Shown piece after piece: positions 848-63,976 of a stretch of 64,000 bases of DNA (the stretch's first letter is position 1; every line of letters begins with the position of its first letter). The stretch comes from a virus. The notes under the pieces were generated by a model that saw nothing but the letters and a program-made list of their open reading frames with translations, had not been told where the DNA came from and made no database searches. The stretch spans positions 1 through 64,000 of IMG/VR virus record IMGVR_UViG_3300047463_000166. One strand, given 5' to 3'. The translations under genes were made by a program, and so were the position numbers.

Positions 848-864
848 TTGGCACCGTCATTGCA
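848..864 (+). promoter_or_regulatory. Sigma-54-like promoter for the first gene group
   Basis: TTGGCACCGTCATTGCA matches the sigma-54 consensus TGGCAC-N5-TTGCA, with the diagnostic GG (850-851) and GC (862-863) exactly ten bases apart. The predicted start is near 875, followed by AGGAGGG and the ATG at 887. The match and its position in front of the first gene are seen directly; recognition by RpoN is inferred. Confidence 0.65.
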
Positions 865-3990: not shown

Positions 3991-4130
3991 GGCATTTTGG
4001 TGTGGTGGTGAGGCGTTTTTGTCAGAAAAAGCGGTCGGGTTTTCTGAAGGAAATCACCGGAAACGAAAGGAATTCAACGGCTTACGTTTTTGGGTTTCTG
4101 GCACCCTGTTTGCAGTACATAGAGGTATGA
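3987..4130 (+). CDS. Possible small basic protein (47 aa)
   Basis: An open frame begins in an ATGA overlap with the preceding gene and ends in an ATGA overlap with the next start at 4127, the coupling used throughout this block. The product is basic at the N-terminus and hydrophobic at the C-terminus. Against this, its 3' end contains a good sigma-54-like promoter (4099-4114), so the region may instead be a leader or intergenic control region. It contains T-rich and A-rich words shared with the intergenic region at 10079-10215. Confidence 0.35.
   Translation: MRHFGVVVRRFCQKKRSGFLKEITGNERNSTAYVFGFLAPCLQYIEV
4099..4114 (+). promoter_or_regulatory. Sigma-54-like promoter
   Basis: TGGCACCCTGTTTGCA fits TGGCAC-N5-TTGCA, with GG (4100-4101) and GC (4112-4113) ten bases apart. 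The following GTACATAGAGG resembles the GTATAGGAG found after the site at 10186. The predicted start (about 4124) almost coincides with the ATG at 4127, so that gene would be nearly leaderless or start further in. It also lies inside a possible 47-codon ORF. Confidence 0.5.
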
Positions 4131-5525: not shown

Positions 5526-5600
5526 GCCGACGTAGCTCAATGCTAGAGCAGCGGTTTTGTAAACCGTAGGTTGGAGGTTGGAGTCCTCTCGTCGGCTCCA
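5526..5600 (+). tRNA. tRNA-Thr (anticodon TGT), CCA encoded
   Basis: The 7-bp acceptor stem GCCGACG/CGTCGGC is perfect. The anticodon stem GCGGT/ACCGT encloses loop TTTGTAA, giving anticodon TGT for ACA. The T-arm is GGAGG with loop TTGGAGT, so the usual TTC is TTG. Discriminator T is followed by an encoded CCA (5598-5600). It sits inside the early operon and is probably processed from the mRNA. Confidence 0.92.
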
Positions 5601-5659: not shown

Positions 5660-5845
5660 ATGAAGCCGATCAAGCGCGTCTATCAACTTGTATTCGTGAT
5701 GGTCGATGGTGCTGAATTGGCCTGGAAGATCTTCTCGAAGATCGAACACTACGAAGCCTACGTAGAAGGACTGAACGAGGAACACCTGAGACGGTTGGGC
5801 ATCTCTGCCATTCGATATCGGATGCACTACATCGATCCTTTTTGA
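5660..5845 (+). CDS. Hypothetical protein (61 aa)
   Basis: Preceded by CAGGAGAC. A small product with an N-terminal strand region (VYQLVFVMVDG) and a helical centre. Located between the two tRNAs, with no identifiable domain. Confidence 0.65.
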   Translation: MKPIKRVYQLVFVMVDGAELAWKIFSKIEHYEAYVEGLNEEHLRRLGISAIRYRMHYIDPF

Positions 5846-5855
5846 GGAGGTCATC

Positions 5856-6017
5856 ATGGTAATGGCACGAAAGAATGAAGACCATAAGTTGCTTGTGCTC
5901 GAAGGGTTCAAGAGTGGGTTCATCAAAGTGGCAATCGACTATGATGATGTGCCCCATGAGGAAGTTGAGGCGTGGACGATGGAGTTGATCGAGGTTCTGA
6001 ATAACAACGGATTTTGA
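5856..6017 (+). CDS. Hypothetical protein (53 aa)
   Basis: The ATG at 5856 follows TGAGGAGG at good spacing. The product is acidic, with hydrophobic strands (KLLVLEGFKSGFIKVAIDYD) and a C-terminal helix. Its TGA stop (6015-6017) is part of the tRNA-Asn acceptor stem, so translation and tRNA maturation compete for the same bases. Confidence 0.65.
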   Translation: MVMARKNEDHKLLVLEGFKSGFIKVAIDYDDVPHEEVEAWTMELIEVLNNNGF

Positions 6018-6091
6018 GGGGTAGCCAAGTCGGTACGGCACCTGACTGTTAATCAGGAGACGCGCAGGTTCGAGCCCTGCCCCCTCAGCCA
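6015..6091 (+). tRNA. tRNA-Asn (anticodon GTT), CCA encoded
   Basis: The acceptor TGAGGGG (6015-6021) pairs fully with CCCCTCA (6081-6087). The anticodon stem CCTGA/TCAGG encloses CTGTTAA, giving GTT. The T-arm GCAGG-TTCGAGC-CCTGC is canonical. Discriminator G and encoded CCA end at 6091. The first three bases are the stop codon of the preceding gene. Confidence 0.95.
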
Positions 6092-6155
6092 GATATCGAT
6101 TTGGGTGATGGTGTAGAAAAACACAACCGGCATGGACCGGAAGAGGTAGGAGTTT

Positions 6156-6193
6156 CTAGGGATAGACGTTGGAACGTACGTGAAATCCCCTAG
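6156..6193 (+). other. Hairpin in the leader of the phosphoesterase gene
   Basis: CTAGGGAT (6156-6163) pairs with ATCCCCTAG (6185-6193) with one bulged C, and an inner ACGT-TGGA-ACGT hairpin forms the tip. It lies in the 144-bp gap between tRNA-Asn and the gene at 6236. It could stabilise the processed mRNA 5' end after tRNA cleavage or act in translation control. No T-run follows, so it is not a classical terminator. Confidence 0.35.
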
Positions 6194-6235
6194 CTTGTAC
6201 TACTCATCCAGCCACACACGAAAGACAAGATTGTA

Positions 6236-6787
6236 ATGCGTTGGTTTATCTCAGATCTACATTTCGGCCATAAAAACATCATTGACTACTGTTCGAGGCC
6301 GTTCCAAACCGCTGAAGAGATGGATCAGGCAATGATGGTGCAATGGAATATGACCATTCATCCTAGCGATCATGTGTACGTTGTCGGTGACGTGACGTTC
6401 CACAGTCCAATGAAGACCGATGAGATCCTCAGCCAGTTGAACGGGCGTAAGCATTTGATCTTAGGTAATCACGACTACGATAAGAAGAAGGTGAAGGGCT
6501 CGCTCAAGAAACACTTCGTTACGATCGAAGAATCAGCGACGTTATTGATCGAGGGAGTGAATCGGAACGCGCATATGTTTCACTTCCCGTTATTTGGACG
6601 AGATAAGCCGAAGATCATGATCCACGGTCACTCACATAATTATCGACCGTTGGTGACGACATACGAGACGACAGGGCAGCTACTTATCAACGTGAGCGTC
6701 GAGAACATTGAGTACACGCCGATATCCGAAACACGAATTGCGGATTTCATCAAACAGCATGAGGATTTTCTGAGGGGTGGGGTATGA
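6236..6787 (+). CDS. Calcineurin-like metallophosphoesterase (183 aa)
   Basis: All hallmark motifs of the two-metal phosphoesterase fold are present in order: DLHFGH near residue 7, GDVTF near 52, GNHDYD near 77 and HGHSH near 129. Length fits the short YfcE-like or phage branch. Members hydrolyse phosphomonoesters or phosphodiesters; the substrate cannot be read from sequence. The gene lies directly upstream of an RNA ligase and downstream of two tRNAs, so a role in RNA-end processing (removing a 2',3'-cyclic phosphate or 3' phosphate) is attractive but inferred. The ribosome site is weak. Confidence 0.9.
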   Translation: MRWFISDLHFGHKNIIDYCSRPFQTAEEMDQAMMVQWNMTIHPSDHVYVVGDVTFHSPMKTDEILSQLNGRKHLILGNHDYDKKKVKGSLKKHFVTIEESATLLIEGVNRNAHMFHFPLFGRDKPKIMIHGHSHNYRPLVTTYETTGQLLINVSVENIEYTPISETRIADFIKQHEDFLRGGV

Positions 6788-6948
6788 AGAAAGAGTCCCA
6801 GGATCAGGTTGTCTTGGTGACGTTGGAATCGTCTCTGTCTCAGTGGGAGACAGACCGTACATTGTTCACAGCATTAGGTATGAAGGTTCACTCTATTCGT
6901 ACAATCAAAAGGAGGCCGTCATGGAAAAGATCATCGACAACAGAGTGA
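6784..6948 (+). CDS. Possible small protein (54 aa)
   Basis: ATGA-coupled to the phosphoesterase gene. The frame runs 165 bases and ends 28 bases inside the RNA ligase gene. Ser/Thr-rich N-terminus and a basic C-terminus; no motif. Without this ORF there would be a 133-bp gap, otherwise rare in this block, and coupling supports reality. Confidence 0.45.
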   Translation: MKKESQDQVVLVTLESSLSQWETDRTLFTALGMKVHSIRTIKRRPSWKRSSTTE

Positions 6949-8060
6949 TCGTGGTTGCAGTCGAGCACGTCGAGAAACATCCGAACGCTGACCGACTGGA
7001 CATTGCTCACTTTGCAGGTTGGAACGTCGTCACGCAGAAAGGAAATTTCTCCCCTGGCGATCGGGCTGTGTATTTGCCGATCGACTCCGTACTTCCGAAG
7101 GAGTTGGAGCTTGAATTGTTCCCACCGGAAAGCAAGATCAAGCTCTCGAAGAGCCGGATCAAGACGATCAAGATCCGAGGCGCGATCAGTCAGGGGATGT
7201 TGGTACCGGCTACCGATCAATCGATCGTGTCGCGCTGCGGTCAGGTATTCATCGGTGACGACATCACCGACAAGCTCGGAGTCACGAAATACGAGCCACC
7301 GGTTGAGCAGACTCCTCCTCGGCTTGGTGTGGCGAAGGTCAGGAAGAAACATCCATTCTTCCCTGAGTACGGCAAGATCAGTCACCTGAAGAACTACCCT
7401 GACCTTTTCCAAGAGGGTGAGAAGGTTGTGGTGACGGAGAAGATTCACGGCACGAACTTCAGAGCGGGATGGGTGCCGATCGAACTCAATACGGTGTGGA
7501 AGCGGATTAAGTATATGCTTACAAAGCTCATCGGCAGAGCGCAAAAGTGGGAGTTTGTGTTTGGCTCCCATCATGTCAACATTGCCGACAAAGGATTCAA
7601 CAACGGATTCTATCCGAAGAACGTCTATGAAGAGACGGTCGTGAACTACGGGCTCCGTCATAATATCCCGATGGGTTTTGTGATCTATGGGGAGATCTAC
7701 GGCTCCGGCATTCAGAGCGGTTATAGCTACGGGCTTGATGCTCAGGAGCACCGGCTGGCAATCTTCGACGTGTTGGTGACGAACGACAGAGGCGAGCAAT
7801 TCTATCTTGATTGGCACGGCGTCGATCATTTTGCACGAGCCACAGGTCTTCCGCTTGTGCCGGTGCTGTACAAGGGTTCGTATAAACCGGAAATTATCAA
7901 CGATTGGGTTGAAGGTGCCTCAATACTTGACCCTAAGCAGAAAGTGCGTGAGGGCTGCGTCATTAAGCCGGAGGTCGAGACGAAGTGTTGGATTGGCCGG
8001 AAGATGCTGAGGGCGATCAATCCTGAGTATCTTCTGAAAGATCAGAGTGAGTGGCACTGA
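6921..8060 (+). CDS. ATP-dependent RNA ligase, DRB0094/Rnl5-like (379 aa)
   Basis: The ATG at 6921 has AGGAGG. Residues 1 to about 125 form an OB-like N-terminal domain as in Deinococcus DraRnl. The nucleotidyltransferase motif I EKIHGTN supplies the lysine that becomes adenylated. IYGEIYG fits the later motif III/IIIa region, and EGCVIKP near residue 346 fits motif V. The family seals 3'-OH/5'-phosphate RNA nicks. With two tRNA genes and a neighbouring phosphoesterase, repair of tRNAs cut by host anticodon nucleases is a reasonable inference. Confidence 0.88.
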   Translation: MEKIIDNRVIVVAVEHVEKHPNADRLDIAHFAGWNVVTQKGNFSPGDRAVYLPIDSVLPKELELELFPPESKIKLSKSRIKTIKIRGAISQGMLVPATDQSIVSRCGQVFIGDDITDKLGVTKYEPPVEQTPPRLGVAKVRKKHPFFPEYGKISHLKNYPDLFQEGEKVVVTEKIHGTNFRAGWVPIELNTVWKRIKYMLTKLIGRAQKWEFVFGSHHVNIADKGFNNGFYPKNVYEETVVNYGLRHNIPMGFVIYGEIYGSGIQSGYSYGLDAQEHRLAIFDVLVTNDRGEQFYLDWHGVDHFARATGLPLVPVLYKGSYKPEIINDWVEGASILDPKQKVREGCVIKPEVETKCWIGRKMLRAINPEYLLKDQSEWH

Positions 8061-10184: not shown

Positions 10185-10200
10185 GGGCATCTGGTTTGCA
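10185..10200 (+). promoter_or_regulatory. Sigma-54-like promoter upstream of the DUF932 gene
   Basis: GGGCATCTGGTTTGCA fits the GG-N10-GC rule (10186-10187 and 10198-10199), with TTTGCA at -12. A leader of about 50 nt follows, then CAGGAGG and the ATG at 10260. The downstream GTATAGGAG is also found after the site at 850 and, in related form, after the one at 4100. Confidence 0.6.
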
Positions 10201-24276: not shown

Positions 24277-25049
24277 TGTATGAACTCATTCTCATACTGG
24301 CGTTGAAGCAGACCGTTGCGGTCAAAACGACAGGGTATTGTCCGACGTATCCCTGCGTGAATAGGAATGCAGAACACGGCATTACAAAGAGTGGACGTCG
24401 AGCTAGACGAGGGACTTGCGCGGCGGATTGGAAGATCTATCCAGCCGGTAGTATCTTCTTTGTCCCAGGATACGGCCTGTGTCGAGTGGAGGATACCGGT
24501 CGGCTCGTTAAAGGTCACCATCTCGACTTGTACTTCGACACGAGACAAGAAGCAGAACAGTGGGGCGTCAAACACCAATTCATTCGGAGGGTCAAAATGG
24601 ATAGCACGTCTAAAGAATTTGAAACTCTTTTAGAAGATCAGTTCACCATTGGGAAGTGGGCGACCGAGAACTTCGGGAAGCCGAACATCTTGGCGGTGCT
24701 TCGTCGTTCGTGTGACGAACTACTCGAAGCGATGGAGGTCTGCGTCGTCGAGAACGAAGCGACCCGCACCATGTTCAAAGCGATGCGTTTAGGTTTAAGC
24801 CATTTGGACAAGTATGCCTTGTCGAATGAGCATCAGCTTAAACTCGTTGACGCGATCGGCTACGAACTAGCCGATTCGGAGATCGTAAACAAACACGCGG
24901 CGGCTGTTATGGGGATCGATCTGAACAGCTACGTTCAGAGGAAGATGGAGATCAACCGTCGCCGGACGTGGAAGAAGAACGCGGACGGCACCGGCCAGCA
25001 CGTTGAGGAGGACATCATTCTGAACTCGATCGATCAGGAGGAAGCATGA
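24276..25049 (+). CDS. 3D-domain protein continuous with a MazG-like pyrophosphohydrolase (257 aa)
   Basis: The GTG at 24276 overlaps the polymerase stop. Residues about 15-105 are a 3D (Asp-Asp-Asp) domain, as in MltA-like murein enzymes: TGYCP, GITKSGR, then GTCAADW, RVEDTGRL and HHLDLYFD. After residue 107 the same frame continues, without a stop, into about 150 residues resembling MazG/DUF550 nucleotide pyrophosphohydrolases (W-x-x-x-x-F-G-K-P, ELADSEIV, RKMEINRRRTW, DGTGQHV). An internal ATG at 24597 has CGGAGGG in front, so the MazG-like part may also be made alone. It precedes the reductase gene, fitting dNTP pool control. Confidence 0.75.
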   Translation: MYELILILALKQTVAVKTTGYCPTYPCVNRNAEHGITKSGRRARRGTCAADWKIYPAGSIFFVPGYGLCRVEDTGRLVKGHHLDLYFDTRQEAEQWGVKHQFIRRVKMDSTSKEFETLLEDQFTIGKWATENFGKPNILAVLRRSCDELLEAMEVCVVENEATRTMFKAMRLGLSHLDKYALSNEHQLKLVDAIGYELADSEIVNKHAAAVMGIDLNSYVQRKMEINRRRTWKKNADGTGQHVEEDIILNSIDQEEA

Positions 25050-27016
25050 CAAACAAAATTCTTAGGGATAAGTATATCAAGCAGTTCGACAACGCGAAGT
25101 TCGAGACGATCATGGGTGAAGTCACCTTCTGGCGTACGTACTCTCGCAGTATATGGGACGAGAACCGTAAAGAGCGGTGGAATGAAACGGTGGGTCGTGT
25201 CGTCAACGGTGTCTTCGATGTGCTCCGTACACACTGCGTCACACATGGGCGGAAGTGGGACAACGAACGTGCTGAACGTACGGCGCGAGACATGTTTCAC
25301 CGTATCCTCAACTTCAAGTTCACCCCACCTGGCCGTGGCCTGTACGCGATGGGCACGGACGCGGTATCTGCACATGGCGGGGCTGTGCTGAACAACTGCG
25401 CGTTCCTCTCGACACGAGATCCGAGACCTGATGTATTTGCCAAGCTCATGAACCTCACGATGCTTGGTGTCGGAGTCGGCTACGATACGCTCGGAGCAGG
25501 GAAGGCAGTGGTTGTTCCACCATCACCGACACTCACGTACACGAGCATTGAGGATACGAGACAAGGGTGGGTTGATTCGGTTGACGAACTTCTTGCATCA
25601 TATTTTGCGGGTGGTCATGCGGCAACGGTTGTCTTTGATTACGGGAAGATTCGTCCAGCCGGTTTACCGATCAGACGTTTTGGTGGTGTCTCAAGTGGAC
25701 CTGAACCATTGAGGAGATTGCACGATTCGTTGCGGGTGTTGTGTAATTCGTATGCGGGAAAGCGGATTGACAGCACGTTTATCGTTGATTGCTGCAATCT
25801 GATTGGTCGGTGTGTGGTTGCCGGTAATGTCCGGCGATCGGCGCAGATTGCCCTCGGACAAGAAGGTGATCGTGACTTCCTGTATCTCAAAGAAGACTTC
25901 AGCAAGGTCGCTGAATACCGTGCCTTCAGCAACAACAGCATCAGGGCGCACGTCGGTATGGACTATTCCGAGGCCGGACCTTTGACGGCTCGTACAGGGG
26001 AACCTGGTTATTTCTGGTTGGACAATTCACGGATGTTTGGCCGGATGAACGGACAGGTCTCCGAGCGTACAGACTTCCTGGCGATGGGCACCAACCCATG
26101 CAGTGAGCAGACTCTTGAGGACGGCGAACTGTGTTGCTTGGTGGAGACCTATCCCGCGAAGCACGACACACTGGACGACTATCTCAAGACCTTGAAGCTC
26201 GCGTACCTCTATGCAAAGGCTGTGACTCTCGTCAAGACCGGCTTCCCCGATACCGACGAGATCATTGCGCGAAACCGTCGCATTGGATGCAGTATGAGCG
26301 GGGTGGTACAAGCCATTCAGAAGTTTGGCGCGACACAGTTTCTTCGGTGGTGCAATCGCGGATACGATGCGCTGACCGGCTTAGATGCCTCCTATAGCGA
26401 TTGGTTAGGCGTCCCTGAATCGATCAAGCGCACGTCGATCAAACCATCGGGGACGGTCTCGATCCTTGCCAATGCGAGTCCTGGCATTCATTACCCACAC
26501 TCTGAGTACTACATCAGGCGTGTCAGGTTTGCATCCAACTCTCCCATTCTGCCTCACCTGAAGCAAGCCGGTTACAACATCGTGCCGGAAGTATATGGGC
26601 AAGAGAAGGGAAAAGAGAACACGATGGTTGTGGAGTTTCCCATCCATGAGCCCCTCTTCTCGAAGGGGAAGGCTCAGGCGTCGATGTGGGAACAACTCGC
26701 GCTCACAGCCGCCATGCAGCGATATTGGGCCGATAATCAAGTGTCTGTGACGGTTCACTTCACGAAGGAAGAGGCGAAGGATATTCCTTTGGCCCTTGAG
26801 ATTTATCAGCACCAACTGAAGTCTGTGAGCTTCTTGCCGTACGATCCGCACCAGGTTTATCAGCTTGCGCCGTACGAAGAGATCACCAAAGAGCAGTACG
26901 ACGCACTGGCATCGAACTTGCTAGAGGTAGTCTTACCGTACGACGTGGCCGACGCTGTACAAGAAAGTCAACCGAAGGGATGCGACTCGGATACGTGCGA
27001 ACTTCCAAAGGGGTGA
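25046..27016 (+). CDS. Adenosylcobalamin-dependent ribonucleotide reductase, class II (656 aa)
   Basis: Family marks: PPGRGLYAMGTD, LNNCAFLST (substrate-facing cysteine), NPCSEQTLEDGELCC (the N-C-E radical site) and a C-terminal C-x4-C (GCDSDTC) that relays electrons. No small-subunit gene is nearby and the single chain resembles monomeric RTPR enzymes from Lactobacillus, which reduce NTPs using vitamin B12. CAGGAGG precedes the ATG. It supplies dNTPs for phage replication without oxygen dependence; the B12 must come from the host. Confidence 0.92.
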   Translation: MTNKILRDKYIKQFDNAKFETIMGEVTFWRTYSRSIWDENRKERWNETVGRVVNGVFDVLRTHCVTHGRKWDNERAERTARDMFHRILNFKFTPPGRGLYAMGTDAVSAHGGAVLNNCAFLSTRDPRPDVFAKLMNLTMLGVGVGYDTLGAGKAVVVPPSPTLTYTSIEDTRQGWVDSVDELLASYFAGGHAATVVFDYGKIRPAGLPIRRFGGVSSGPEPLRRLHDSLRVLCNSYAGKRIDSTFIVDCCNLIGRCVVAGNVRRSAQIALGQEGDRDFLYLKEDFSKVAEYRAFSNNSIRAHVGMDYSEAGPLTARTGEPGYFWLDNSRMFGRMNGQVSERTDFLAMGTNPCSEQTLEDGELCCLVETYPAKHDTLDDYLKTLKLAYLYAKAVTLVKTGFPDTDEIIARNRRIGCSMSGVVQAIQKFGATQFLRWCNRGYDALTGLDASYSDWLGVPESIKRTSIKPSGTVSILANASPGIHYPHSEYYIRRVRFASNSPILPHLKQAGYNIVPEVYGQEKGKENTMVVEFPIHEPLFSKGKAQASMWEQLALTAAMQRYWADNQVSVTVHFTKEEAKDIPLALEIYQHQLKSVSFLPYDPHQVYQLAPYEEITKEQYDALASNLLEVVLPYDVADAVQESQPKGCDSDTCELPKG

Positions 27017-53261: not shown

Positions 53262-56200
53262 TTACACCTTCATTGTTTCGTGTTTCGTGAATTGTATTAG
53301 GGCCGTCTCTCGATAGATCGCCGTTCCAAGGTACTGATGCTGTACCGTCAGGATTGGAGCCCGTACGTTGATTGTAGCCGATCCAGCCGCTAAGATCGAG
53401 TCGAATGTGGCCGTCCTAGTCGCAGTCGGAGCCGTTACCGTGACGGTGTTCGTCTCAACTACATGCGTCAGGTGTACACCAGCCAAGACCGGAGCAGAGA
53501 CCGTAACCGTGTTGGCCGTTGCTGCAACATACTGGTCAAGACTCAGAAGTGTTGCAACCGGTGCTGTGACGGTAACGATATTGACTCCCGCACTAGCGAG
53601 CGCATCTACCTGCATCGTTGCTGTTGGAGCCGTGACATTAACTGTGTTCGCCGTCGTCTCGACTACAACATTCACTGTGGCAGTTGGTGCTGTCACCGTC
53701 ACAGTGTTAGTTGTCTGCGGCATCGTTAGGTGTACTGCCGGAACAGTCGGAGCCGAGAGTGTAATGACGTTCGCGTCAGCGAGTAAGTTTCCTGCTTGAA
53801 TGATCTCCGCTGCCGGTGCGGTCAGAGTAATGACGTTGGCCGTCTGCGGCATCGTCAAGTGAACTGCGGGAACAGTCGGAGCCGATAAGGTAACGGTGTT
53901 CTGTCCGGCTGCTAATGTAACCTCAGCCAACAATGTCTCTTCAGGGGCCGAGAGTGTAACGGTGTTCTGTCCGGCTGCTAATGTCGTCTCAGCGAGAAGA
54001 GTATTCGCCGGAGCCGATAACGTCACGATATTCGCTGAAGCCGATAAGGTAATCTCAGCCAACAGCGTCTCTTCAGGAGCCGATAATGTAACGGTATTCT
54101 GTCCGGCTGCTACTGTGACCTCAGCCAACTGTGATTGTGCAGGAGCCGACAATGTAATGGTGTTTTGTCCCGCTGCAAGTGTGTCTCCACCAGCAGGAGC
54201 GTCAATCCCCGCTGTCGGTGCCGAGAGCGTGACTGTGTTCTGTCCGGCTGCTACTGTGACCTCAGCCAACTGTGACTGTGCAGGAGCCGACACCGTAACA
54301 GTATTGGTGTCCTGCGGCATCGTGAGGTTGATAGCCGGAATGGTCGGAGCCGTGATGGTGATGACGTTCGCAGCCGGAGTGTGTAGGTTTGGATTCAACT
54401 CCGCTGTTGGCGCAGTAAGAGTAGTTGTCACACCACCGAACGTCAGAACGTCGTTCGCAATAGCTGTACTGGTCGTCTTGATATACTGCGACTTGCTGGT
54501 GAAGGCTTCGACCTGAGCACCCCAAATCCACAGGTTCGATGAGCCGTCTCCGGTGTAGTCAAAGTATTGTTCGGCATCCATCGATACCGGCACACCGACA
54601 GGGGGTTTACCAACAGCAATTTCTAAATTGAACCCTGTTGATGGTTTCTCGATAAATCCACCAGCCGAGATACGGTACCACCCATTCGACAGAGCTTCGA
54701 TCGTAGCCGTGTGCGGTCCTGCTGTACTCACGTCTCCGTAGTACGCATTGACGCTGAGGCCAGTATCAGGGTCGATGAGTGTACCAGCCCCGCTTAAATG
54801 GAAGCCTTGGAAAATATAGTTCCGTTGATACGAACCCGCAAAGTTGTCCGACATTATCAACGCAATGTACGAGAGAGAATTGGGCTTCACATGGAGTGAG
54901 CAGTTGACGTACGTGCGGTCGTGCGGGAACGTAATCTGCGAGTAACTTGCAATAGTGTGGAACAGACCTGTTGTGTCCTCGGTCACTTTCGTTGCTGTGG
55001 TTGTCCCGTCAGGAGCGGTCGTATCATTCGCTGTGACACTTGCCCCCGTAAACCCTCCATTGTTGTTCGTTGACCAAACTGCGTTCGTGAAATCTTCTGA
55101 CCACAGAACCAAGTTTTTCTTTGGTTGAATACCGACGAGAAGTGTCGCGGTCCCTGCCGTGACGGTGACGGTATTGGCTGTGGCCGGAACCGTCAAGACC
55201 ATCGACGGGACAACCGGTGCCGTCACAGTGATGGTGTTGGTTGTGGCTGGTACCGTGAGATGAACGGCTTCTACAGTCGGTGCTGTGACCGTGACTGTAT
55301 TCTGTCCAGCCGCAAGAACCACTTCTTGTATAAGGCTCGCGGTTGGGGCTGTGACCGTAATTGTATTCTGTCCGGCTGCTAATGTGGTCGCAATAAGCTG
55401 TGATTGAGCAGGAGCCGAGACTGTAATAGTGTTCTGTCCAGCCGCAAGAACCACGCCTTGTATAAGGCTCGCGGTTGGAGCGACAATTACTATGGTAGGT
55501 GACTCATTATTGCCACCTTCCCAATTATCCGCGCTCACAAATTTAGAGACTACCTCACCCGCGACACCTGGAGAACCGCCCGAAATAGTTGTATCTACGA
55601 CTTGATGCTTGAGCTGACCATTGACTCTAGCGGATAAGACGGAGCCGAATGCACGTAATTCAAGGACAGCACTGCTAGATAAACCTGAACCTGTCTGTAG
55701 TGTCGTGACGGTACCACTAACAGAGCGAATGAGTTTCGATGAGGTTGAATTGGCGATATATGCGTAGTATGTCGCCGCGCCAGTCTGACCTCTAACAAGT
55801 ACACCGATAAATGAATCGTTGGCTATAGACGAGAGCGTAACCTTAGAGTAGTGATCTGATAAGAACGTCTGTCCGGTATAAGCGGCGGCGGTGTTTGGTC
55901 CTGTGTTTAGGTCGTTCCTGAGTTGATTAGACTCGGCAAGCATTGTTCCAGACAGGAGCGACCAATTAGCGTTATGTGTCGGAAGTTGTACACTGCTGAC
56001 CTCTGTGAATTCGTCGGTGAATGTCTTGTTCGTCCATGCCGGAGCTGTTAAATGAACAGCAGGGATATCAGGAGCAGAGACCGTAACCGTGTTGGTTGTC
56101 TGCGGCATCGTCAGATCAACAGCGGGGACAGTCGGAGCCGAGAGTGTAACCGTATTTGCGCCAGCATCCAACGCAACGTCGAATGTTGGATGAACCATGA

Positions 56201-60272: not shown

Positions 60273-61626
60273 CACCAATCTCCTTCTTCGCTGGCACAGG
60301 TTTCGGCTTCTGTGGATTCTGTTGATCTTGTGGCGGACCATCAGACGAGCCACCAGGAGCCATTGAAGGCGCAGCAACGACTACCTTGCCGGTCTCATCG
60401 ACTTGATTCACATTCTGCATCACATAACTCGCGTTTCCATTCGGCACGTCGTCGAGTCCAAGTTTGAAGCGTTTGTTTAGTCTGTTGAGCGGATAACCCA
60501 TCTGCCACAACTTGAAGGCCATTTCGACCTTCTCGACCATATCACCTTGCAGGGCTTCAACGTCGGTGAGATCGAACTCTGCGTAGATGTTACCGGTACC
60601 AGACACCGAGAATAATTGCGACCACATGACCCATTCGATCAACTTCATTTTCGGCACAAGGGTCTTCACCCAAAATTCTCTCGCCTGAACCTTCGCCACG
60701 GCGAAATTGACATCAGTCCACACACCAAGTTCCAACTTCGGCACTTTGAAACACGCGAGCACTTCATCGCGGTTCCACTGCTTCTGGTTGAGAAACTCCA
60801 TGTCCTTCTGCGATACGGAGAGTTGCTTGTACTTCGCACCGCCCTCAAGCAGTGCCAGCGTGTGCGCTTTATTGACGCCTTGATGATGCTCACGGAACTG
60901 AGTCAGCATCCGATTGAACTGTTCGTCCGTCAAATCCTCTTCGATCTCGATGACGCCCCCAGGCAGCGCACTATTCGAGAAGAACGCCTTGTTGTACTCT
61001 GATGCGAGTTGATCTTGGTCGATGCCAAGCTGTGCGGCTTCGATTGGTGCAAGCCCACGAATGGGGTCATACGGATTGAAGAGTTTGAAGTGACATACTT
61101 CCCACTTTGCAAATGGTGTATCGACACGATCGCCTCTCTCATTGATCGTCTCCGTCTTCCAGCCGGTCAACTTCTCAGCTTTATTCTTGACAGGCTCAAA
61201 GATTCTTCCATCGAACGGCTGAATCTCTCGCGGCACCGCAGTCGGCTCATCACGATCGAGCACCCACATACACTCTCCGAACAGCAGCAAATACGTGACG
61301 GTCGCTTCCATCAACTGTTGCAAGCCCATCTCAGCGTTGGGTTTCTCAAACAGTGTTGACCATTGATTCGATTGTCGGTCTGCGGCTTTCTTGTCTCGTG
61401 AATTTTTCCACGCGAGGGGTGTCTGTGAAATGTTCAACGCGACGGATTCAACGGCTCCATGCACCCACGCATGAACTCTATACGGTTCAGTGACCTGATT
61501 TCCGCCCAAAATGGCCGATAAACTGGTCATGCGGTTTGTCCCCGCCAGCGTGAATTGCGAATCAGATAACCGCTGAATGATCGGGATACTTTTCTGAACA
61601 ATCCAATTCTCAAGCCACTTATACAT
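60253..61626 (-). CDS. Portal protein, HK97 type (457 aa)
   Basis: MEATVTYLLLFGECMWVLDRD and NSALPGGVIEIEEDLTDEQFNRM, then QWNRDEVLACFKVPKLELG are typical phage_portal family regions (HK97 gp3). A Pro/Gln/Lys-rich tail (QDQQNPQKPKPVPAKK) extends past the core. Forms the dodecameric DNA gate. Eight-base overlap with the large terminase gene. Confidence 0.92.
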   Translation of the reverse strand: MYKWLENWIVQKSIPIIQRLSDSQFTLAGTNRMTSLSAILGGNQVTEPYRVHAWVHGAVESVALNISQTPLAWKNSRDKKAADRQSNQWSTLFEKPNAEMGLQQLMEATVTYLLLFGECMWVLDRDEPTAVPREIQPFDGRIFEPVKNKAEKLTGWKTETINERGDRVDTPFAKWEVCHFKLFNPYDPIRGLAPIEAAQLGIDQDQLASEYNKAFFSNSALPGGVIEIEEDLTDEQFNRMLTQFREHHQGVNKAHTLALLEGGAKYKQLSVSQKDMEFLNQKQWNRDEVLACFKVPKLELGVWTDVNFAVAKVQAREFWVKTLVPKMKLIEWVMWSQLFSVSGTGNIYAEFDLTDVEALQGDMVEKVEMAFKLWQMGYPLNRLNKRFKLGLDDVPNGNASYVMQNVNQVDETGKVVVAAPSMAPGGSSDGPPQDQQNPQKPKPVPAKKEIGDANTET

Positions 61627-62968
61627 GCAGGAACCTCACTCGTGGTGTTCGACGTTCAACAATGAGCCACGTCAGCGCAAAGACCAGCGCATCGACTCTG
61701 TCCGGTGACTGTCCCTTCTTCGCTTGCTCTTCAGGGTTGAATGTCACCATCTGTTCTTCCAACTGCTCGAAGTATTCTGTGTGGAAGATACGCTTTTGCT
61801 CGTATAACGCGCCGACCGGCTCTGCACGAAGACGTTTTCCCTTCGAGGAGTGCAGCTTCATGAACGATACGGCGAGACCACCCTTGGCTTGTCGCAACGT
61901 ATATTCCACTAGGTCGCCGCCATTATTGACTTCTCCTAATACCTTATCCGCTTTCCATTTATGATACAAGTGGATTATCAACGCGGCCCACTCATTCGGC
62001 TTGTAGTGACCGCTTCGGTCTTCAAGCACATCGGCATTCTGCCCGTTGTTATAGCTGCCACACACCACGATACCGGTCTCATCACTCCCTTCTCCGGCAC
62101 TCACCGCAGGGTCTACCGCGATACAGATCCGCTCGTATTGATCGACCGGCATCGGCCCTTGCTTCTTCATGATGTTGTCTTCAGAGAAGATGGCTCCTTC
62201 AACCGCAGCCAGGAACAGCCCTTCAATTTCCTGCTTACCGAGTCTCGTGCCTTGGTACCGCTCAAGGATCGCCTTGATGAAGGAGTCCGGTAGGTTTTTC
62301 CTGTTGTCCAACATCGAGCCCCTCGTCAACACGAGGCCAGGAAGTTTGCGGACTCGATTCATGAAGATCGTCGGCTTCGGTGTCGTGGTAATGATCGTCT
62401 GCGGATTGGAACCAAGGCGCATCCCAAACTGCAACATGTCCCACGTCCCCTCGTCGGCCCACGCTGCCAACTCGTCGCACCACGCTTTTTCATGTTGTGG
62501 GCCACGCAACCGCTCGCTCTCTTCAGCAGAGTACATCATGCCGATGGCTCCGTTGGGCCAGATGATTCGCCGCTTTGAGGGTTCGTACTTAGGGAGAAAC
62601 TCGTCACGCGAGCAGCCGATGATGCCGGACTCGCCGTTGACCATCACGTCACGCACGTCGGCAGCAGTCGGCGCAACAAGGGCCACACGTTTGACGCCGT
62701 GGTTTTCTACTTGATCGCGGATCCACTCGGCTCCCGTTCGTGTTTTTCCAAAACCCCGTCCGGCCTGGATCAGCCAGTAGACCCACTCATCACTCGGCGG
62801 CGGGAGTTGATTGTCCCTCGCCCACAACGACCACTCCTTTTTCAGATACTCCCGCTCCGTCTCGCTCACGTTGCTCAGAAGCTCGTCTCTTTCCTGCACG
62901 GTCAAGCGCGTTAGCGAGTTTATCTCGTGCGGAGTTTCGTTCAGCACGTTGCTGTGCGTCGAGGTCAT
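61619..62968 (-). CDS. Terminase large subunit (449 aa)
   Basis: Walker A GRGFGKT at residues 70-76, Walker B/acidic CDELAAW, ITTTPKP as the coupling motif, and a nuclease domain with IAVDPAVS, VLGEVNNGGD and DRVDALVFAL (RNase H-like metal ligands), as in Terminase_6/headful-type enzymes. Its first 59 codons overlap the small subunit gene in a different frame; no later Met fits, so the overlap appears genuine. Confidence 0.93.
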   Translation of the reverse strand: MTSTHSNVLNETPHEINSLTRLTVQERDELLSNVSETEREYLKKEWSLWARDNQLPPPSDEWVYWLIQAGRGFGKTRTGAEWIRDQVENHGVKRVALVAPTAADVRDVMVNGESGIIGCSRDEFLPKYEPSKRRIIWPNGAIGMMYSAEESERLRGPQHEKAWCDELAAWADEGTWDMLQFGMRLGSNPQTIITTTPKPTIFMNRVRKLPGLVLTRGSMLDNRKNLPDSFIKAILERYQGTRLGKQEIEGLFLAAVEGAIFSEDNIMKKQGPMPVDQYERICIAVDPAVSAGEGSDETGIVVCGSYNNGQNADVLEDRSGHYKPNEWAALIIHLYHKWKADKVLGEVNNGGDLVEYTLRQAKGGLAVSFMKLHSSKGKRLRAEPVGALYEQKRIFHTEYFEQLEEQMVTFNPEEQAKKGQSPDRVDALVFALTWLIVERRTPRVRFLHV

Positions 62969-63395
62969 TTTTCTCTACCTTCTCTGTTTGTTCAAGGTAT
63001 TGCTTTCCAAGGTGAACGAGCATTCGCTCGCTCCCCATCATCGCTGCGTCCCACTGTGCCAAGCGGAGTCTTGCCTTCGCACGTTCGCGTCCCCGCGCCC
63101 ACACAGGAGAAAACGTCACGTTGAATTGTTCTTTTGTGAGGCCGGTGATTGCAATCACTTCACTCGGCTCACACATGAGGCTCCCTAATCGTTCCACGAG
63201 TTGCAAGTCACGCTCAGTCGGACACGTCGGATCGTCCATGATGGACACATCCATCGCATAGACACGTTCGGACGCAGGAAGTTGCGCTTCGGCTGGCATC
63301 AGCACATTCACTCGATCGAGCGTTCGTAATCGACCGCCATTACGCGACGGGTTCTCCGGCACAGCAAGATTGGTATCTACGGTTGATTCACTCAT
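62790..63395 (-). CDS. Terminase small subunit (201 aa)
   Basis: Helical, with a central EVIAITGLTKEQFNVTF helix-turn-helix-like segment, then a charged coiled-coil region and a disordered C-terminal tail (KRRASEQRERDGAGVSEKG) that overlaps the large subunit by 179 bases. It recognises DNA and recruits the large subunit. First gene of the leftward late block, with no other ORF between it and the promoter-like motifs at 63702-63743. Confidence 0.7.
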   Translation of the reverse strand: MSESTVDTNLAVPENPSRNGGRLRTLDRVNVLMPAEAQLPASERVYAMDVSIMDDPTCPTERDLQLVERLGSLMCEPSEVIAITGLTKEQFNVTFSPVWARGRERAKARLRLAQWDAAMMGSERMLVHLGKQYLEQTEKVEKNDLDAQQRAERNSARDKLANALDRAGKRRASEQRERDGAGVSEKGVVVVGEGQSTPAAE

Positions 63396-63690
63396 GGAGT
63401 CACATTAGGGCGAACTACGTAATATGTCAAGTGATTAGCGCAGAACGTGATCTGTTTGTCAAGTTTTGTGTCTCGTTTTACATGCTTCGTGTTCCGAACC
63501 TTCATGTTTTTTTCCTGTGTATATTTTAGGGGGTCTGCGTATTACTCGGAGGGGGTCGAAAAAATTTTCCACAAGTGGTGGGGGTGTGCGATTTCTACCA
63601 CACTATTAGTTGTGTGTTGCATTTATGCACTACGTATGTGCGATTTCTACCACACTATATGTGGTGTTGTAATAATGATACACACTATAT
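63396..63690. repeat. Non-coding leader with 22-bp direct repeats
   Basis: No gene is seen. A 22-bp direct repeat TGTGCGATTTCTACCACACT (first 20 bases shown) occurs at 63585-63606 and 63637-63658, 52 bp apart. The second copy runs into the near-palindrome ACCACACTATATGTGGT (63650-63666), and a third partial copy follows at 63679-63694. The repeats lie in the putative 5' leader of the late block and could be operators or activator sites. Confidence 0.5.
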
Positions 63691-63701
63691 GTAGTTCGAC
63701 A

Positions 63702-63743
63702 TGCACGTTTCATGCCTCATATCGCCTTGCAAGAATCATGCCA
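63702..63743 (-). promoter_or_regulatory. Two sigma-54-like promoters facing the late block
   Basis: On the minus strand TGGCATGATTCTTGCA (63743 to 63728) and AGGCATGAAACGTGCA (63717 to 63702) both keep GG-N10-GC. They are 10 bp apart and point toward the terminase genes, whose first ATG is at 63395, giving leaders of around 300 nt. Confidence 0.6.
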
Positions 63744-63770: not shown

Positions 63771-63976
63771 TGGCATAAGACTTGCATTGGCATAGGAATT
63801 GCATATCTCGGAATTCGCGTTTCGGTATAAGACTTGCAAGGCACAAAACTTGCAAGGCACAAAACTTGCAAGGCGGAATTCGCGTTTCGTGTCTGGCAAG
63901 AAAATTGCAAGGCATGAAAAATGCAATAGCAAAAAACGTGTTACGAGTTTCGCGTTTTGTGGCATGAGTTTTGCAT
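63771..63976 (+). promoter_or_regulatory. Array of eight plus-strand sigma-54-like promoters
   Basis: Eight sites with exact GG-N10-GC spacing. Their GG starts are at 63772, 63789, 63824, 63840, 63856, 63895, 63911 and 63961. Typical cores are TGGCATAAGACTTGCA, TGGCATAGGAATTGCA, AGGCACAAAACTTGCA (twice, overlapping), TGGCAAGAAAATTGCA and TGGCATGAGTTTTGCA. Short AATTCGCGTTTCG words (63812, 63877) are interspersed. All point toward base 64000, that is away from the late genes. No gene lies to the right in the window, so they may drive the early block if the molecule closes on itself. Confidence 0.6.

Follow-up and report, generated by a model that had tools for sequence, protein, structure and literature searches.

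Arrays of sigma-54-type sites in a phage control region and in unrelated phages

Introduction

Sigma-54 (RpoN) is the sole bacterial sigma factor that requires an ATP-driven activator. To our knowledge, phages as a group are not known to use it. Phage promoter clusters read by host sigma-70, or by a phage sigma factor or RNA polymerase, occupy control regions between divergent operons, as does the array described here; they carry other recognition sequences, whereas sigma-54 sites need an ATP-dependent activator. The -24/-12 promoters recognized by sigma-54 in bacteria share with the phage arrays the form YTGGCAYG-N4-TTGCW, the GG-N10-GC spacing and the match to a matrix from E. coli ChIP-seq (PMC4591121). 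The bacterial promoters are mostly single, whereas the phage arrays reach 10-26 sites, often on both strands and in helical register. Transcription-factor decoy arrays, or sponges, place many high-affinity-type sites in the non-coding DNA of a multiplying genome, and the phage arrays would, judging from their sequence, do likewise. The Pakpunavirus phages PAK_P4 and phiMK have an intergenic element that, like the array studied here, contains sigma-54-type sites (a convergent pair and a third site). It differs in having convergent pairs instead of tandem plus-strand sites, and its annotation does not mention sigma-54. A search of the open-access literature turned up no phage described as having sigma-54 arrays, which is no proof, as subscription papers fell mostly outside its scope. 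We rate the sigma-54 sites as known and their arrangement and carrier as new.

Results

Sites of the window array

The window is the whole stretch of DNA that was analysed, positions 1 to 64,000 of the IMG/VR virus record IMGVR_UViG_3300047463_000166. An earlier note had described eight plus-strand GG-N10-GC 16-mers near its right end, and all eight are present within 63771-63975 (Table 1). It had also described two overlapping direct copies 16 bp apart; sites 4 and 5 are identical with a 16-bp period, but they are directly adjacent and do not overlap. A perfect and a weaker minus-strand site to the left of the array (63728 and 63702) are additional to these eight. The array has the -24/-12 elements, GG-N10-GC spacing and TGGCAY/TTGCW core of sigma-54 sites. 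The distances between neighbours (26, 17, 35, 16, 16, 39, 16 and 50 bp) agree with the spacing classes of other arrays.

Sites were scored using a sigma-54 matrix that we derived from E. coli ChIP-seq data (the 42 intergenic-sense sites given in PMC4591121); it is the reference for the site scores. Within 206 bp, six sites match or exceed the lower quartile of the E. coli promoters, against a mean of 0.011 and a maximum of 1 in 1000 dinucleotide shuffles, so that the claimed excess over chance was borne out. A consensus-based matrix also found six sites in the same 206 bp (shuffles, mean 0.027, maximum 1). Across the whole window, a looser consensus allowing two mismatches gave no enrichment (38 matches, 30.7 expected), and the enrichment signal is therefore local.

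Two other repeats are present in this region. One, CGGAATTCGCGTTTCG, occurs with a variant interleaved among the sigma-54-type sites (63809-63824, 63874-63889 and 63944-63959). The other is a dyad, CCACACTATATGTGG, in three near-copies at 63597-63695, 75-175 bp left of the array; these copies are possible activator or repressor sites. An Rfam search of the window control region returned no match.

Table 1 Features of the window and of related loci (coordinates refer to the window unless a locus is given; scores are from the E. coli matrix)
Feature	Coordinates	Strand	Sequence	Score	Remark
Sigma-54-type site 1	63771..63786	+	TGGCATAAGACTTGCA	17.7	
Sigma-54-type site 2	63788..63803	+	TGGCATAGGAATTGCA	17.3	17 bp past site 1
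Site 3	63823..63838	+	CGGTATAAGACTTGCA	9.0	weak
Site 4	63839..63854	+	AGGCACAAAACTTGCA	15.4	
Site 5	63855..63870	+	as site 4	15.4	repeats site 4 exactly; 16-bp period
Site 6	63894..63909	+	TGGCAAGAAAATTGCA	18.9	
Site 7	63910..63925	+	AGGCATGAAAAATGCA	13.1	16 bp past site 6
Site 8	63960..63975	+	TGGCATGAGTTTTGCA	19.6	
Minus-strand site	63728..63743	-	TGGCATGATTCTTGCA	21.4	score equals best E. coli promoter; oriented to terminase operon
Weaker minus-strand site	63702..63717	-	AGGCATGAAACGTGCA	11.0	26 bp from 63728 site
Single sigma-54-type site	849..864	+	TGGCACCGTCATTGCA	16.3	intergenic
Single site	4099..4114	+	TGGCACCCTGTTTGCA	16.7	early gene downstream
Site ahead of DUF932 gene	10185..10200	+	GGGCATCTGGTTTGCA		
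First gene of leftward packaging operon	62790..63395	-			201 aa; overlaps terL, which is downstream
Terminase large subunit	61619..62968	-			phrog_979, 1e-30
CGGAAAATTT..CGGGG and TATACACAGAAAAAAAC element	L009:2500-2570, L008:3020-3090, L010:480-560, L011:100-170, window:63505-63570				
B12-dependent ribonucleotide reductase	25046-27016				
PHA02142-type RNA ligase	6777-8060				
tRNA-Thr	5526-5600				
tRNA-Asn	6015-6091				

Genomic position and relatives

The array had been placed at a genome end, which proved to be a mere contig end. The record is 64094 bp long, and the array is internal in a relative, G003 (locus L009, 67785 bp), which has an overlap of about 144 bp between its two ends. 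The two are colinear at 62-77% DNA identity; thus, the apparent end is where the contig breaks off. The array separates a leftward packaging operon from a rightward early operon. By position, the first gene of the packaging operon probably encodes the small terminase (no family match).

Whether related phages keep the array, a question raised in the earlier note, has a positive answer. Loci L008 and L009 have it in the same place and direction, and L011 has a truncated part. In the window, L008 and L009 together, 15 of 18 sites are oriented away from the terminase and toward the early operon. Direct comparison of a paired module in L008 (TGGCAT-GACTC-TTGCTAAGGCACGCGTCTTGCATAGCGCG) and L009 (TGGCAC-GTTTC-TTGCTAAGGCACCGATATTGCATAGCGCG) shows that TGGCA/TTGC/GGCA/TTGC are retained while the spacers are different. 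The first early gene of G003 begins ~600 bp downstream of its array.

In the relatives, dense TACGTAGTTTTCCCTA-type and CACGAAACACG-type repeats, which differ per phage, are found between array and early genes (L009:2040-2330, L010:180-460, L008:2690-2850). On the other side, between the array and the terminase operon, the CGGAAAATTT..CGGGG and TATACACAGAAAAAAAC element is conserved (Table 1); it is a possible origin or late promoter. Similar AAAATTTTTC/CACAGAAAA text is found upstream of the terminase in Cronobacter phage Ss1 and Vibrio phage VA-RY-3. The window phage also encodes a B12-dependent ribonucleotide reductase, a PHA02142-type RNA ligase and two tRNAs (Table 1). The PAK_P4 annotation likewise includes a PHA02142-type RNA ligase.

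Single sites and phage-coded factors

Single sites precede rightward genes of the early region at 849, 4099, 10185 and 13710 in the window, at 980 and 8853 in G003 and at 445 in G005. At 849, the predicted start is about 11 nt ahead of an ATG with a strong Shine-Dalgarno sequence. A DUF932-type gene is preceded by a site in three phages (window 10185, G003 8853 and G005 445). Several single early sites have the form TTGCW-N11-TAT, in which case the predicted start is G; array members lack it. A sigma-70 reading of the single sites was rejected because 11 nt from TTGCW to TAT are incompatible with -35/-10 spacing. Also rejected were G003:12406 and G005:3946 as early promoters, these being lipoprotein signal-peptide codons, and window 15865, 23912 and 26907 as promoter sites, all inside genes.

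In seven family records searched in all six frames, neither PF00158 (sigma-54 activator) nor PF04552 (RpoN DNA-binding) was found. We rejected a phage-coded sigma-54 system, given that neither an RpoN nor an AAA+ activator gene occurs in these seven records. Among 27 other array contigs there was no clear AAA+ activator, and only weak AAA hits. A terminase-based search for the host in genomes and isolate phages found nothing close; the nearest genome terminase has 37-45% identity.

Arrays across IMG/VR

We scanned IMG/VR for strict pairs, defined as two copies of TGGCAYGN4TTGCW separated by 0-30 bp. At least 120 stretches contain one, versus 2 for the reversed control. A looser scan for tandem pairs with a 16/17-bp period matched 38 stretches, versus 6 for the backwards-read pattern. 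The matches listed by the two scans together comprise 155 loci, including the window's family, which group into 82 DNA-level clusters. Among these listed matches, 21% of strict sites in the 82 clusters fall in ORFs of at least 120 aa, and such ORFs make up 66% of the sequence. The arrays are thus a widespread class, mostly intergenic and present in dozens of unrelated phage clusters. Within loci chosen for their arrays, 334 sites with scores of at least 14.7 fall in 76 kb of array segments, versus 67 in the remaining 619 kb. None of 398 sampled Pseudomonadota genomes has the strict tandem pair. This is mildly informative, because even at the frequency seen in viruses only a few were to be expected.

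In the listed matches, the array is upstream of the terminase in 24 of the 25 clusters that have a terminase within 4 kb, and downstream in one. Arrays point away from the terminase in 13 clusters and toward it in 8, with 3 tied. The only protein families widely recurrent near the listed arrays (~5 kb flank in most loci) are the terminase and GP88 (PF17338); a shared regulator gene adjoining the arrays was rejected on this ground. We also rejected the arrays as a trait of a terminase lineage, since related isolate phages and prophages in known hosts are without them. The densest array seen, at 5660-6450 of the 147-kb contig L116, has about 26 sites (15 plus, 11 minus) and is largely non-coding. 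Its span is roughly 800 bp to 1.4 kb. At L198:8256-8456, TTATCCACAGG DnaA-box-like repeats are found beside sigma-54 sites.

Motif identity and spacing

From the arrays of the 82 clusters, a motif learned with positions unforced reads YTGGCAYG-R-W-T-C-TTGCW (among the matches listed, as for the four comparisons that follow). Compared column by column with the E. coli ChIP-seq matrix, the correlation is 0.96. The motif was seeded with consensus sites, so that agreement in the core is partly built in, and the weak columns and flanks are the fairer test. Based on the eight low-information columns, the correlation is 0.80 (permutation p 0.0005). The unforced bases 5' of TGGCA in strict sites follow the sigma-54 consensus, with Y in 92% and R in 69% at the preceding base. 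The median site score is 18.8 in arrays and 16.0 in E. coli promoters.

Spacing was evaluated in 64 clusters from a spacing-unbiased scan of the matches listed, with one count per cluster per spacing. Same-strand neighbours in these listed matches are separated by 25-29 or 35-41 bp and hardly ever by 19-24 or 30-34 bp; a 10.5-bp periodicity fits these distances (p about 6e-10). The 16-17-bp class is the product of the dedicated pair scan. Such half-integral helical turns put neighbouring sites on opposite faces of the helix, as would be expected if selection favoured a bulky protein occupying both at once. Repeat-unit duplication may contribute to this periodicity, although each cluster entered the count only once for a given spacing. 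Among convergent pairs, gaps of 1-5 bp predominate (37/62 cluster-gap counts), which gives a 34-bp palindrome, found in 53 contigs. In 27 of 33 listed arrays with at least four sites, both strands carry sites; simple tandem promoters are thus not a sufficient explanation.

Pseudomonas phages

One of the palindrome contigs (L328) is Pseudomonas phage phiMK, and the palindrome region is present in 134 Pseudomonas phages. In seven aligned phages, whose hosts are P. aeruginosa, P. putida, P. syringae and another Pseudomonas, the outer TGGCA/TGCCA never changes, the inner TTGC hardly does, and the N4 spacers vary. Pakpunavirus phages, which infect the RpoN-bearing species Pseudomonas aeruginosa, have conserved the 34-bp palindrome. 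Sites in these phages are far from the terminase and near early-type genes.

In PAK_P4 (NC_022986.1), nine sites score 14.7 or more, and all but one of these belong to either of two clusters (55671-55856 and 67531-68480). Both clusters coincide with as16 and as17, the only antisense RNAs from RNA-seq annotated outside the structural-gene region. The annotated start of as16 (55850, in rounded coordinates) is near the start predicted from site 55841 (~55830); sigma-70-like promoters are present near as16, so the agreement is suggestive only. In the 67500-68700 region, as17 spans the second cluster, where an HNH endonuclease gene (67726-68328) is apparently inserted. An intergenic stretch of phiMK (L328:1040-1112), GCGGGCAACGCAGGCA..GGAGG..GAGCACCGGAGGCAAACA.GGAGGGAGCCTGAGATTTAG, is strongly conserved at orthologous places in other Pseudomonas phages. 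It is a candidate small RNA with several GGA motifs, preceded by a TATAAT box and directly followed by the sigma-54 palindrome. For the phiMK region, Rfam gave no more than a chance-level match.

Discussion

Judged by their sequence, the sites are probably of sigma-54 type and bound by RpoN. We put at about even the chance that the array consists of real RpoN sites on which the host sigma-54 polymerase docks, with activator-dependent early transcription as the most likely outcome. At the control region separating the two divergent operons, host RNA polymerase with sigma-54 would dock on several array sites simultaneously. Once a host AAA+ activator was engaged, the docked polymerase would transcribe toward the early genes, with the minus-strand sites possibly acting on the packaging side. 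Since sites in the window's family point mainly toward the early genes, this is the direction that docked polymerase would most likely take. We infer that host sigma-54 binds the sites, that several are occupied at once and that transcription follows.

The earlier note had read the array as sigma-54 promoters that time phage genes. The sigma-54-type motif is upheld by the matrix match, the shuffles and conservation, whereas a role as gene-timing promoters is not established, given that many related arrays have mixed strands in a fixed helical geometry and that members are 16-17 bp apart. Neighbours at this distance are too close for all to fire independently, which counts against a plain promoter array, as do the lack of a phage activator gene, the ~600 bp to the early gene in G003 and, in array members, the missing TTGCW-N11-TAT form of the single early sites. 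In the window's family, the common direction of 15/18 sites speaks for promoters or for a platform that loads polymerase in one direction. Across phages, sites that are clustered, tightly packed, in helical register and on both strands speak for titration or a scaffold.

Titration would mean that the array acts chiefly as a sponge: as copies of the phage DNA accumulate, it would draw host RNA polymerase-sigma-54 off host promoters, such as those for motility, nitrogen or phage-shock genes, and its own transcription would be secondary. Such a role suits sites that are concentrated in one or two non-coding places and not genome-wide, have mixed orientation across arrays and are nearer the ideal than host promoters, in phages without a dedicated activator; phasing on opposite faces would also ease simultaneous occupancy. 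We nevertheless consider it rather unlikely, because the window's own family is strongly one-directional, single sites are located at gene starts, and 16-17-bp neighbours are probably mutually exclusive. A combined role is tentative, if conceivable: the arrays, with near-ideal sites in helical register, may be a convergently evolved sponge and landing platform that takes up large numbers of host RNA polymerase-sigma-54 while phage DNA accumulates, silencing the RpoN regulon while polymerase is poised on phage DNA.

A different protein, phage- or host-coded, could have a sigma-54-like motif, the arrays then being operators or a nucleoprotein scaffold; the earlier note had offered a phage protein of this kind as its alternative. 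The 34-bp convergent pairs and fixed spacing classes do resemble ordered binding by a regulator, and close relatives by terminase lineage in known hosts are without arrays. This is nonetheless quite unlikely, as agreement with the experimental sigma-54 matrix extends to weak columns and, besides the terminase and GP88, no family recurs widely near the listed arrays (~5 kb flank, most loci). A packaging, replication-origin or recombination site is very improbable. It would fit the position upstream of the terminase in 24/25 of the listed clusters with a terminase within 4 kb, and one array (L198) that adjoins TTATCCACA DnaA-box-like repeats. The same motif, however, occurs in phages with terminases of different families and, in Pakpunavirus, far from the terminase and near early-type genes, and a sigma-54 matrix match is not expected of a terminase-specific site. 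Packaging or origin roles account for the neighbourhood, but not for the motif or for the Pakpunavirus location.

Dense arrays of strict geometry in dozens of unrelated phage lineages indicate that selection built them repeatedly. Returning to docking by the host sigma-54 polymerase, the array evidence points to an unrecognised phage route to capture host RNA polymerase. If the sites bind RpoN, phages would either time their genes via host stress activators or drain host sigma-54. The Pakpunavirus phages of P. aeruginosa make the question directly testable.
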